Source of the DNA: Methylocystaceae bacterium
GTDB taxonomy: Bacteria > Pseudomonadota > Alphaproteobacteria > Rhizobiales > Beijerinckiaceae
Direction of reading: 5' to 3'
Length of the DNA: 64,000 nucleotides
Assembly: GCA_009773555.1 (NCBI GenBank)
Contig: WSXZ01000018.1
Coordinates: 1 to 64,000 of the forward strand
Made by a program: the position numbers and the translations under genes. This document shows, in pieces, positions 1,645 through 6,179 of this stretch; position 1 is the stretch's first letter; each line of letters starts with the position of its first letter. The notes beneath the pieces were generated by a model. That model was not told the origin of the DNA. It saw only the letters and a program-made list of their open reading frames with translations, and ran no database searches.

Positions 1645-4203
1645 ATGTCGCTTGCCGACTACCGCAAGAAGCGCGATTTTGGGACGACGCGCGAGCCGAA
1701 GGGGCGAGGCGCTCGAAAGGCTGGCAGCAGCTTCGTCGTCCAGAAACATGCCGCGAGGCGGCTGCATTACGATCTTCGCCTGGAGATGGACGGCGTTCTG
1801 AAAAGCTGGGCTGTGACCAGAGGTCCAAGCCTCGTGCCGGGCGAAAAGCGGCTCGCCGTTCACGTCGAGGACCACCCTCTCGACTATCGCAATTTCGAAG
1901 GCGTCATTCCGGAAGGCCAATATGGCGCCGGCGAAGTGATCGTGTGGGACAAGGGCGTGTGGATTCCCGAAGGCGATCCGCACAAGGGCTATGCCAAGGG
2001 TCACCTCGATTTCGAATTGCGCGGCGAAAAGCTCGGGGGCCGTTGGCATCTCGTGCGCATGGCGCGAAAACCGCGCGAGAAGCACGACAACTGGCTTCTT
2101 ATCAAAAGCGAAGACGCATTTGCGCGTGCGCCTGAAGACGAGGACATACTTGAGGAGATGCCGCGTTCGGTAGACACCGGGCGCACGATCGGCGATGTCG
2201 CAGAGGGCAAGCCGGCGCGGCGCTCGAAAAAAGCCGCCGCGCCAAAACAGGCCGCAGCGCCCCGGTCAATCAAGACAAGCGCCGTCGCGCCAACGCAAGC
2301 GCCCGCGGCGGACATCGACCCGTCGCGTCTCAAGGGCGCAAAGAAAGCGCCGCTACCGAATTTCATTGCGCCGATGCAGGCCAGTTCCGGCGCCGCGCCG
2401 GCGAGTAAGGAATGGATTCACGAAATCAAATTCGACGGCTATCGCGTGCAGGCGCGCATCGAGGCGGGACGCGTACGGCTGCTCTCACGCAGCGGTCTCG
2501 ATTGGACGAAGAAATTCGGCGATGAGGTCGCGTCGGCGCTGCGCGCCCTGCCGCTCGGCGCCGCGCTCATCGACGGCGAAATCGTCGTCGAGACGAGTTC
2601 GGGCGCGTCGGATTTCTCCGGGCTGCAGGCCGATCTGAGCGCAGGGCGGACCGATCGCTTCGTCTATTGGGCCTTCGATCTTCTGCACCTCGAGGGCTAC
2701 GATCTGCGCGGCGCGACCTTGCTGGAACGCAAACGGTTGCTGGAAGCGCTCCTGGGCGCTGAGAACGGCGACACGGTTCGTCTGAGCCTTCACTTTGAGG
2801 ACAGCGGCGCGGTCGTGCTGTCGCACGCGTGTCGACTCGGCCTCGAAGGCGTAGTGTCAAAGCTGCGGGATTCGTCCTATCGCTCCGGCCGCGTGAAGAG
2901 CTGGATAAAAGCCAAATGCTTCGCGCGGCAGGAGTTCGTCGTCGCGGGCTATACGCCATCGACGGTGTCGCGCCGGGCGATCGGCGCGCTCGTGCTTGGC
3001 GTCTACCAGAATGGCGTGCTTTGCCATGTTGGCCGCGTCGGGACGGGATTTACGGCCGATATGGCGCATGAGCTTTTCACGAAACTCGATCCCATGCGCA
3101 TCGCCTCGAGCCCGTTCGGCGCGCGGCTCAGCACGGACGCGGCGCGCCACGTGCGCTATGTGCGCCCCGAACTGGTGGCTGAGGTCGAATTTCGCGGCTG
3201 GACGGGCGATCAAAATCTTCGGTACGCCTCCTTTCGCGGTCTGCGCGAAGATAAGGATGCGCGCGACGTCGTCCGTGAAAGTGCGCCGCAGGTTGAGCGC
3301 CCCGCAGCGGCGAGAGCGGAGCAAAGCGCCGTGAGGCTCACCCATCCCGATCGGCTTTATTGGCCGGATCAAGGCGTCACCAAACAGGGCCTCGCCGATT
3401 ACTACACCGAAATCTGGCGCTATATCGCGCCCTTCATCGTCAATCGCCCGCTGGCGCTGCTGCGCTGTCCCAACGGCGTCGAGGGAGAGAAGTTCTTCCA
3501 GAAGCATGCCTGGAAGGGCATCGATCCGAACATCGTCCTCATCGACGACCCGAAAGGAGAAGAACAGCCCTTGCTCAGCATCAAGGACCTCAACGGCCTG
3601 ATCGCGCTCGTTCAATCCGGGGCCCTGGAAATTCATCCCTGGGGCTCGACGGCGTCGGACTGGGAGCGTCCTGACGTCATCATCATGGATCTCGATCCCG
3701 GCGAAGAGGTGGCGTGGGAGTCCGTCATTGCGGCCGCGGAAGAAACGCGAGACCGTCTGCAAGACCTTGGGCTCGCCGCCTTCGTGAAAACATCCGGCGG
3801 CAAGGGCCTTCATGTGGTGGCGCCCGTGAAGCCGAAAGCGGAATGGCCGCAGGTGAAGGCTTTCACCAAAGGCATCGCCGATGCGATGACACAGGACAGC
3901 CCGAGCAAATATGTTGCAACGATCACGAAATCGAAGCGCCGCGGAAAGATACTCATCGACTATCTGCGCAATCAGCGCGGCGCGACGGCTGTCGCGCCCT
4001 ACTCCACGCGCGCCCGTCCGGCAGCCGCAGTATCGGTTCCGCTCTCCTGGGACGAACTCAGTCCGGCGATCGGACCTGACTATTTCACGATCGTGAAAAC
4101 CCTCGCGCGCCTCGAGTCGCTGCAGAGCGATCCGTGGGGAGATTTTCGTCAAGCGGCGGCGCCGATCGAAACGCCGAAGACGCGGGGGAAGAGAAAAGCC
4201 TAG
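1645..4203 (+). CDS. ligD: Multifunctional NHEJ DNA ligase LigD (PE-LIG-POL)
   Basis: An 852-aa LigD with three modules. The 3'-phosphoesterase domain (about residues 10-180) carries the HYDLRLE motif. The ATP-dependent ligase (about 240-540) has the nucleophilic lysine in EIKFDGYR (about K262), then LIDGEIV and EGVVSKL. The primase-polymerase domain (about 565-840) has the metal-binding DLDPGE motif and KTSGGKGLH. The linker at 185-230 is Ala/Lys-rich. The order PE-LIG-POL is one of the known bacterial arrangements. It is co-transcribed with ku, and its stop codon overlaps the convergent stop of the second ku. Confidence 0.97.
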   Translation: MSLADYRKKRDFGTTREPKGRGARKAGSSFVVQKHAARRLHYDLRLEMDGVLKSWAVTRGPSLVPGEKRLAVHVEDHPLDYRNFEGVIPEGQYGAGEVIVWDKGVWIPEGDPHKGYAKGHLDFELRGEKLGGRWHLVRMARKPREKHDNWLLIKSEDAFARAPEDEDILEEMPRSVDTGRTIGDVAEGKPARRSKKAAAPKQAAAPRSIKTSAVAPTQAPAADIDPSRLKGAKKAPLPNFIAPMQASSGAAPASKEWIHEIKFDGYRVQARIEAGRVRLLSRSGLDWTKKFGDEVASALRALPLGAALIDGEIVVETSSGASDFSGLQADLSAGRTDRFVYWAFDLLHLEGYDLRGATLLERKRLLEALLGAENGDTVRLSLHFEDSGAVVLSHACRLGLEGVVSKLRDSSYRSGRVKSWIKAKCFARQEFVVAGYTPSTVSRRAIGALVLGVYQNGVLCHVGRVGTGFTADMAHELFTKLDPMRIASSPFGARLSTDAARHVRYVRPELVAEVEFRGWTGDQNLRYASFRGLREDKDARDVVRESAPQVERPAAARAEQSAVRLTHPDRLYWPDQGVTKQGLADYYTEIWRYIAPFIVNRPLALLRCPNGVEGEKFFQKHAWKGIDPNIVLIDDPKGEEQPLLSIKDLNGLIALVQSGALEIHPWGSTASDWERPDVIIMDLDPGEEVAWESVIAAAEETRDRLQDLGLAAFVKTSGGKGLHVVAPVKPKAEWPQVKAFTKGIADAMTQDSPSKYVATITKSKRRGKILIDYLRNQRGATAVAPYSTRARPAAAVSVPLSWDELSPAIGPDYFTIVKTLARLESLQSDPWGDFRQAAAPIETPKTRGKRKA

Positions 4204-5006
4204 CGACGTTTGGAGCCGCGCTTTTCCGCATCGATGCTCTTGCGCAGCGCATCCATGATATTGACGACATTGCTCGGAGCCGCCGAAGCCTGTTTTTTGC
4301 CGCGAGCGGGTATGTGCGCCTTCTTCTTTCCGGAAATGATGTCCAGCAACTGCGCTTGAACGGGATCATGGGTCATCGCCGGATCCCAGTGACTCTTGCG
4401 CTCATCGATCAATTTGGAAATCAGGGCGAGCGCTTGCGCGTTCGGCGCTTCCGCGCCAACCTTGTCGAGGTAGTCCTTCGGATCGCGCACCTCGTCAGCG
4501 AAGCGCAATGTCCATAAGACAAGCCCCTTGTCGCGCGGCTCGACCATCACGGCGCGCTCGCGTCGATACATCACGAGCCGCGACAGGCCGACGGTGCCCG
4601 TCGCCTTAATCGCGTCGCGAATGACGGAAAAGGCCTCAGCGCCGATTGGATCATCCGGAACGAGATAGTGCGGCTTGTCGAACCAGATCCAGTCGACGCT
4701 CGCGGCCGGAGCAAAGGTCTCGATATCGATCGTTCGCGTGCTTTCGAGACTTAAGGCGTCAAGCTCTTCATCTTCAAGAAGCACGTAATCGTCTTCGCTG
4801 CGCGGATAACCTTTCGCCGCGTCGTCTTCGCCAATCGGCGCGCCGGAGACCGCATCGACATATTGACTGACGACGCGGTTGCCAGTGTTTCGATTAAGGA
4901 TGTGGAAGCGAACTTTTTCGCCTTCAGTCGTGGCCGGCGTCATCGCGACCGGACAGGTCACAAGCGAAAGCTTCAAATAGCCTTTCCAGAATGACCGCGG
5001 CGCCAT
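4200..5006 (-). CDS. ku: Non-homologous end joining protein Ku (copy 2)
   Basis: This is a second Ku paralogue, convergent with ligD and overlapping its stop codon. The start at 5006 (MAPRSFWKGYLKLSLVTCPV) is chosen because it aligns with the other Ku; the longer ORF from 5039 adds 11 residues unlike Ku. FDKPHYL is conserved and the tail is basic. An upstream GGAAC-N16-CGTT element at 5041-5065 points to general-stress sigma factor control. Multiple Ku paralogues are common in rhizobia and relatives and may form distinct dimers. Confidence 0.95.
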   Translation of the reverse strand: MAPRSFWKGYLKLSLVTCPVAMTPATTEGEKVRFHILNRNTGNRVVSQYVDAVSGAPIGEDDAAKGYPRSEDDYVLLEDEELDALSLESTRTIDIETFAPAASVDWIWFDKPHYLVPDDPIGAEAFSVIRDAIKATGTVGLSRLVMYRRERAVMVEPRDKGLVLWTLRFADEVRDPKDYLDKVGAEAPNAQALALISKLIDERKSHWDPAMTHDPVQAQLLDIISGKKKAHIPARGKKQASAAPSNVVNIMDALRKSIDAEKRGSKRR

Positions 5007-5111: not shown

Positions 5112-5136
5112 GGAACTTTGGCCCTCGACTAGTGTT
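5112..5136 (+). promoter_or_regulatory. EcfG-type promoter for the NepR-like gene
   Basis: GGAAC, 16 nt, TGTT: a perfect -35 and one mismatch in the -10 against GGAAC-N16/17-CGTT. It lies about 85 nt upstream of the preferred nepR-like start. Autoregulation of nepR genes by EcfG is usual. Confidence 0.6.
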
Positions 5137-5221
5137 AAATTCAATCATGACCCTCCACCTGCCCGTATTCATTGGAGTCGACGGCTCCGATATCCAGAGC
5201 GCCGCCCAAGGGCTCTTCGAC

Positions 5222-5431
5222 ATGAATAAGAAAGCTGAAAAGCAAATCTCGAAGGGCCGCCGGGGCGCGCCTGGGGCGCAGCGTGAGGTGGCGCACCAGC
5301 TCTCCTTCCTTGGGATCGATGGGGAATTGACCTCCCGGCTGCGCGACGTGTACGCGACGAGCCTCTTAGAACCGATGCCGGATAAGTTTCTCGACTTGCT
5401 CGTGCGACTTTCAGCGTCGGTCGCCAAATAG
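5222..5431 (+). CDS. NepR-like anti-sigma factor
   Basis: NepR binds and inhibits the general stress sigma factor EcfG and is itself sequestered by phosphorylated PhyR. The C-terminal half, LRDVYATSLLEPMPDKFLDL, matches the NepR core pattern (LRxxYxxxxxEPxPDxFLxLL). The ORF track starts at a GTG at 5132. I prefer the ATG at 5222 (69 aa, usual NepR size) because the GTG lies inside the promoter and the extra N-terminus does not resemble NepR; an ATG at 5147 is also possible. No phyR or ecfG is adjacent, so this is an orphan copy. Confidence 0.75.
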   Translation: MNKKAEKQISKGRRGAPGAQREVAHQLSFLGIDGELTSRLRDVYATSLLEPMPDKFLDLLVRLSASVAK

Positions 5432-5513
5432 GCTGTAGCGGTTGTTGCTCACGCTCTCCTGGAAGGCGTGACTGGCTCCTTGCGCTGGACGCGCTGAGTG
5501 ACGAGAAAGAATT

Positions 5514-5552
5514 AAAAAAAAAAATGATTGCCTGTCCTTCAACAGGCAATCA
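5514..5552 (-). terminator. Rho-independent terminator downstream of the 53-aa ORF
   Basis: A perfect 10-bp stem, TGATTGCCTG/CAGGCAATCA, with an 8-nt loop, followed on the minus strand by an 11-T run. It starts 24 nt after the stop codon of the small minus-strand ORF. Confidence 0.9.
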
Positions 5553-5575
5553 TCAAGGATCTATGGTCGAGGGAA

Positions 5576-5737
5576 TCATTTTCGGCTGCGCAACCACTGC
5601 TCGATCTCCGCTTGTCGCGGTTCGCGAACATGGATGAAACGCTTTCGCGGCGCTTCGACTTGCGGCAAAAGCAGCAACTTGCAGACAATTTCCACAGTGC
5701 GCCGCCAGTCTACACCAAGTTTCGGCTTCGAACTCAT
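5576..5737 (-). CDS. Unannotated 53-aa basic small protein in the stress cluster
   Basis: Missing from the ORF track because of length. From ATG at 5737 it reads MSSKPKLGVDWRRTVEIVCK onward for 53 codons and ends QWLRSRK. Support: an AAAGGAGAG Shine-Dalgarno 5 nt before the ATG, a GGAAC-N16-AGTT promoter 37 nt upstream, and a strong terminator after the stop. The protein is basic with a short hydrophobic stretch (CKLLLLP). I recognise no family. The overlapping plus-strand ORF 5528-5917 lacks such signals and is probably a shadow. Confidence 0.75.
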   Translation of the reverse strand: MSSKPKLGVDWRRTVEIVCKLLLLPQVEAPRKRFIHVREPRQAEIEQWLRSRK

Positions 5738-5773
5738 TTCGGCTCTCCTTTCAACGGAGACGGGTATGAAAAC

Positions 5774-5798
5774 AACTCTCCCTTTTTAAGAATGTTCC
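5774..5798 (-). promoter_or_regulatory. EcfG-type promoter for the 53-aa ORF
   Basis: Minus-strand GGAAC, 16 nt, AGTT (one mismatch to CGTT), placed 37 nt upstream of the ORF start. Confidence 0.55.
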
Positions 5799-5937: not shown

Positions 5938-6141
5938 TCACGAGTTTAGAGTCTTCAGCCAGGTGTCAACCTCTTCGCGAATGCGGTCCCGCCCTTCGCC
6001 GTAGCGTTCTTGGAGAACGCCCTCAAACTGTTCGCGCTTGCCGTCCATGCGCGCGAGATCGTCGTCGGTGAGTTCCGCCCACTTCTCTCTTACCTTGCCC
6101 TTGAACTGCTTCCAGTTGCCTTCGACACGATTCCAGTCCAT
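5938..6141 (-). CDS. csbD: CsbD family general stress protein
   Basis: The start at 6141 gives MDWNRVEGNWKQFKGKVREK, the typical CsbD N-terminus; the 77-aa ORF version carries 10 extra residues. The 67-aa hydrophilic helical protein ends in a short motif (EEVDTWLKTL), usual for the family. CsbD proteins accumulate under general stress, and their molecular role is unclear. A perfect GGAAC-N16-CGTT promoter upstream and a strong terminator downstream make it a single-gene stress unit. Confidence 0.95.
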   Translation of the reverse strand: MDWNRVEGNWKQFKGKVREKWAELTDDDLARMDGKREQFEGVLQERYGEGRDRIREEVDTWLKTLNS

Positions 6142-6179
6142 CGCCGTTTCCCCAAGGTTAAGGAGTTCCACGCCGAGGC

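Follow-up and report, generated by a model that had tools for sequence, protein, structure and literature searches.

The question raised by this locus is whether a short reading frame on the minus strand, situated between csbD and a nepR paralogue in the 64 kb stretch of DNA analysed here (the window), is a genuine gene, and what its product might do. The original prediction described a small minus-strand ORF with a stress promoter, a strong Shine–Dalgarno sequence, a stop codon and a 10 bp hairpin terminator with 11 T residues. All of these signals were observed in the sequence, the Shine–Dalgarno sequence preceding the ATG, and they are listed here with the neighbouring genes.

5938..6144, minus strand: csbD, 68 aa, with an EcfG-type promoter at 6204-6180 and a terminator at 5884-5862
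5774..5798, minus strand: σEcfG-type promoter, GGAAC-N16-AGTT (motif match; conserved in 13 of 13 carriers)
5744..5760, minus strand: leader hairpin UCUCC-GUUGAAA-GGAGA over the Shine–Dalgarno sequence (predicted fold)
5743..5750, minus strand: Shine–Dalgarno sequence, AAGGAGAG (from the sequence; AAGGAG core invariant in 13 copies)
5576..5737, minus strand: small ORF, 53 aa plus stop, ATG start (sequence, conservation, selection)
5513..5554, minus strand: intrinsic terminator, hairpin plus 11 T (sequence and fold)
5132..5431, plus strand: NepR-family paralogue, convergent, with an EcfG-like site at 5112-5136
4200..5006, minus strand: ku, with an EcfG-type promoter at 5065-5041

The small ORF and its conservation

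The 53 aa product of the ORF (5737-5576, minus strand) is MSSKPKLGVDWRRTVEIVCKLLLLPQVEAPRKRFIHVREPRQAEIEQWLRSRK. The stop codon is separated by 24 nt from the terminator hairpin, the stem of which has a core of 10 bp; when folded, it is lengthened by flanking pairs to 13 bp (−19.2 kcal/mol). Because csbD has a terminator of its own, the small gene should form a monocistronic unit.

Full-length copies were recovered from 13 of the 101 genomes searched, all of them Methylocystis and that of the window among them. The copies occupy the same position in each, with frame, start, Shine–Dalgarno sequence, promoter and terminator all kept. They are 48–96 % identical to the window copy at the amino acid level, encode products of 53–57 aa, and differ by indels of whole codons only; every copy has the ATG, the AAGGAG core and a closing TGA. 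The pN/pS ratio for the 13 copies is 0.52, whereas column shuffles average 0.91 and 1 in 1000 gives a value as low; these figures are only indicative, as the shuffle test ignores shared ancestry. When the eight 53 aa copies were considered by themselves, the proposed frame was without stops and had the lowest ratio among the six frames, a value reached or undercut by 43 of 2000 shuffles. By region, pN/pS is 0.18 at the N-terminus, 0.78 in the middle and 0.41 in the C-terminal 20 residues; synonymous variation (pS) falls from 0.40 in the middle to 0.23 in the C-terminal part. Lack of conservation among relatives had been named beforehand as the finding that would speak against the frame; it is instead kept, and is under purifying selection. 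Judged by these comparisons, the small ORF is a protein-coding gene and not a chance ORF. A 129 aa frame on the opposite strand was also considered and was rejected, since it is not conserved and is broken early in locus L011.

Neighbourhood, promoter and distribution

The promoter site matches published EcfG consensus sequences, GGAAC-N16-CGTT in Rhizobium etli (PMC3892343) and GGAAC-N17-20-GTT in Sphingomonas melonis (PMC6599016), and to that extent the stress promoter originally proposed is borne out. Among the carriers the site reads GGAAC-N16-[A/C]GTT, the −10 element being AGTT in 12 of 13 and CGTT in one. It also lies amid others of its kind. The gene order in carriers is fds genes, ychJ, csbD, small gene, convergent nepR, ku, ligD and second ku, the nepR paralogue being immediately downstream of the small gene in all 13; csbD is missing from this place in one genome (G026). 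An EcfG-like site is present upstream of ku and of the small gene in 13/13 carriers, of csbD in 12/12 of those having it here, and of nepR in 12/13. In the window itself, four of the five EcfG-like sites found (about 2.3 would be expected by chance in the whole 64 kb) fall within 1.2 kb, before csbD, the small gene, the nepR paralogue and ku. Divergent orthologues of that paralogue do not align before about residue 23–29 of the longer frame, which makes the internal ATG at 5222 (69 aa) its probable true start.

Elsewhere in the genome (contig C36), a NepR match has as its neighbours a PhyR-family protein and an ECF sigma factor, the latter called EcfG from its place in that locus. The genome thus contains PhyR, NepR and an EcfG-like sigma factor, and the small gene has an EcfG-type promoter upstream. 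By promoter and neighbourhood, from which we infer its expression, the small gene would belong to the general stress response (GSR) of one Methylocystis clade.

When about 85 000 species genomes were scanned for the pattern, the gene was detected in Methylocystis only (M. rosea, M. silviterrae, M. suflitae, strains H62, L43 and B8, and MAGs); among 398 genomes from the order and 248 from the family, nothing convincing turned up beyond that genus. Candidate relatives outside Methylocystis (including one in G098) had E values of 0.005–0.05, were short pieces mostly in long or broken frames, and were taken as chance. A phage or plasmid origin was likewise rejected, as plasmids, viral contigs and PHROGs contained no relatives of the small gene. 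In a tree of fdsA, all of the carriers fall within one well-supported clade of 17 genomes, four members of which are without the gene; csbD, in comparison, is present in nearly all Methylocystis genomes. Where the small gene is absent, csbD is joined directly to nepR (G035), other genes adjoin nepR (G001) or an unrelated ORF occupies the interval (G032); a further clade member without it, G029, is an incomplete assembly. The simplest reading of this pattern would be one gain followed by several losses, and absence from several close relatives indicates that the gene is dispensable.

Close copies of the window ku are confined to the carrier clade, save for a 60 %-identical one in G024. In the relatives (L015-L026; window 1645-5006), ligD lies between two divergent ku genes, the second about 31–35 % identical to the first. 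Since the first ku has an EcfG-type promoter, stress-induced end joining is suggested; Ku is in the list of EcfG-dependent proteins of S. melonis (PMC6599016).

The predicted protein and the leader hairpin

The original description of a basic protein with a short hydrophobic patch holds for the window copy, which has a net charge of +7, a pI of about 10.9 and an amphipathic predicted helix at residues 11–22. The protein is basic across the carriers (net +3 to +7, pI 10–11.5); in the 53 aa copies this helix is strongly amphipathic, whereas longer copies have a more hydrophobic one. A second predicted helix, at residues 42–52, bears the segment AEIExWLR; in the structure model the mean pLDDT is 94 at residues 41–50, with a pTM of only 0.28, that is, low global confidence. 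The ends are invariant (KPKxG..W at the N-terminus, VREPxxAEIExWLR at the C-terminus), and the middle is weakly constrained. This pattern suggests that the polar ends are partner-binding segments, as KPKxG and VREPxxAEIExWLR probably are, and that the variable hydrophobic patch serves as a generic surface anchor.

It had also been stated that the protein matches no known family. Searches of Pfam, NCBIfam, PHROG and PDB sequences agree with this in finding no relatives; a PDB fold search, with the low-confidence model as query, found no structural relatives. The best Pfam match across the 13 members had an E value of 0.14 in a single member and was taken as chance. The protein did not match the CsbD profile (PF05532) or the NepR profile (PF18557), the sole NepR match at the locus being the neighbouring gene, nor did it match the DUF1127 small proteins in Pfam, NCBIfam or PHROG. 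Literature searches found no paper on the gene.

In the predicted leader hairpin, GGAGA of the Shine–Dalgarno sequence is bound by the 5′ stem UCUCC, and the probability that the Shine–Dalgarno sequence is unpaired is 0.11 or less in all 13 copies (33 nt leader, predicted fold); these are not independent, and the stem is almost invariant, so that it offers no covariation evidence. For 31 other frames of the window, which served as controls, the median was 0.38, with two at or below 0.05, and shuffled 5′ arms hid the Shine–Dalgarno sequence almost as completely in about 17 % of cases (167 of 1000 at 0.02 or less). No other gene of the genome shares the leader motif at up to one mismatch. The hairpin may add translational control, a lead rather than a finding, and is a candidate thermosensor or RNA-controlled leader.

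Possible roles in the general stress response

Established at the level of sequence are a conserved EcfG-type promoter, Shine–Dalgarno sequence, ORF and terminator, together with purifying selection on the protein. The explanation that we favour, and consider probable, is that this is a monocistronic small-protein gene of the alphaproteobacterial GSR, whose lineage-specific product, with partner-binding ends, would be not an enzyme but an accessory modulator or protectant. PhyR would draw NepR off σEcfG, which would then transcribe the small gene together with csbD, nepR and ku. The basic product of 53–57 aa would sit on the membrane or another hydrophobic surface by means of its central helix, leaving the N- and C-terminal segments to bind a partner, and the hairpin that hides the Shine–Dalgarno sequence could impose a post-transcriptional check, for example by temperature or a helper RNA. 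Against this explanation stand the AGTT rather than CGTT −10 element in 12 of 13 copies, the weakly constrained middle, the low pTM and the dispensability of the gene. A bolder version, which we regard as rather unlikely, is that a new family of GSR modulators arose in Methylocystis under a double gate, σEcfG and the masking hairpin, and that it may act via the adjacent NepR paralogue.

A lineage-specific stress small protein is a familiar kind of element; the family itself is new. Like the hypothetical small proteins of the EcfG regulon of S. melonis Fr1 (PMC6599016), it has an EcfG-type promoter near an ORF, an uncharacterised product and a stress context, but no sequence relation to them was found and the small gene is restricted to Methylocystis. 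CsbD, its neighbour, resembles it in promoter type and size, and NepR anti-sigma factors in being small, adjacent and preceded by an EcfG-type promoter; the profile results set it apart from both, as does, in the case of CsbD, its restriction to one Methylocystis sub-clade.

As a special case of the favoured explanation, the protein might interact directly with PhyR or with the NepR paralogue next to it, and so provide feedback on the partner switch of the GSR. The invariable presence of the convergent nepR paralogue in carriers is consistent with this, as is the S. melonis gene no. 1448, a member of the EcfG regulon next to ecfG and reported to be a novel negative feedback regulator (PMC6599016); G035 and G001, however, keep the paralogue without the small gene, and the protein has no similarity to NepR or PhyR. 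We give this special case a low probability. Slightly less probable still is a dual-function stress RNA, in which a transcript of about 250 nt would act also or mainly as a regulatory RNA, the ORF being secondary. An EcfG-controlled ncRNA is known, ReC64 of R. etli (PMC3892343), likewise a short intergenic transcript from an EcfG promoter (the transcript here is a predicted one), and the nearly invariant leader and terminator, the reduced pS of the C-terminal part and the hairpin over the Shine–Dalgarno sequence would all suit an RNA function. The small gene differs from ReC64 in its conserved coding frame, Shine–Dalgarno sequence and purifying selection; its indels are of whole codons, its transcript has only a short non-coding part, and the window has no Rfam match.

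The high pI, the hydrophobic or amphipathic helix and the sequestered Shine–Dalgarno sequence are also reminiscent of a membrane-acting type I toxin-like peptide. We consider this highly improbable: it is the polar ends that are most conserved and not the hydrophobic patch, which in the window copy is modestly hydrophobic (Kyte–Doolittle 1.4 over 15 residues), the promoter type is that of the stress regulon, a consensus promoter scan gave no σ70-type match nearby for an antisense RNA, and plasmid and phage relatives were not found. A chance ORF in an intergenic region, an idea to which its shortness and the open frame on the opposite strand lend something, is scarcely credible given the conservation, the codon-sized indels, the selection and the conserved signals. 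On the favoured explanation, a well-supported small-protein family is added to the stress response of environmentally important methane oxidizers, one more lineage-specific stress gene overlooked by length cut-offs. The neighbourhood also places DNA end joining (ku), csbD and a NepR paralogue under a single promoter type, a regulon prediction that can be tested directly.

Several other observations concern the surroundings of the gene. The interval between ychJ/csbD and nepR/ku is emptied or replaced in three relatives (L104:4410-4889, L151:430-1500 and L105:5663-5863), which suggests that it is a hotspot of change. In Methylocystis strain SC2, the proteins that increase at high ammonium include a CsbD protein (PMC9600857), which, to judge by its tag number, is probably a paralogue encoded at another locus. 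Profile PF18557 matches up to nine NepR-family proteins in Methylocystis genomes and seven in that of the window (e.g. L098, L100-L103), which, as far as profile matches go, are a large set of anti-sigma paralogues. At L098:2713-3712 there is a second csbD–nepR locus, with two more short, overlapping ORFs between these genes behind an EcfG-like site. One encodes a basic protein of 62 aa, MKKTVRPFTVEYRSKRGK..., and the other a protein of 64 aa which, with no NCBIfam match, has a core, MKPVPEDLKGLLIKLD, that is NepR-like by eye.
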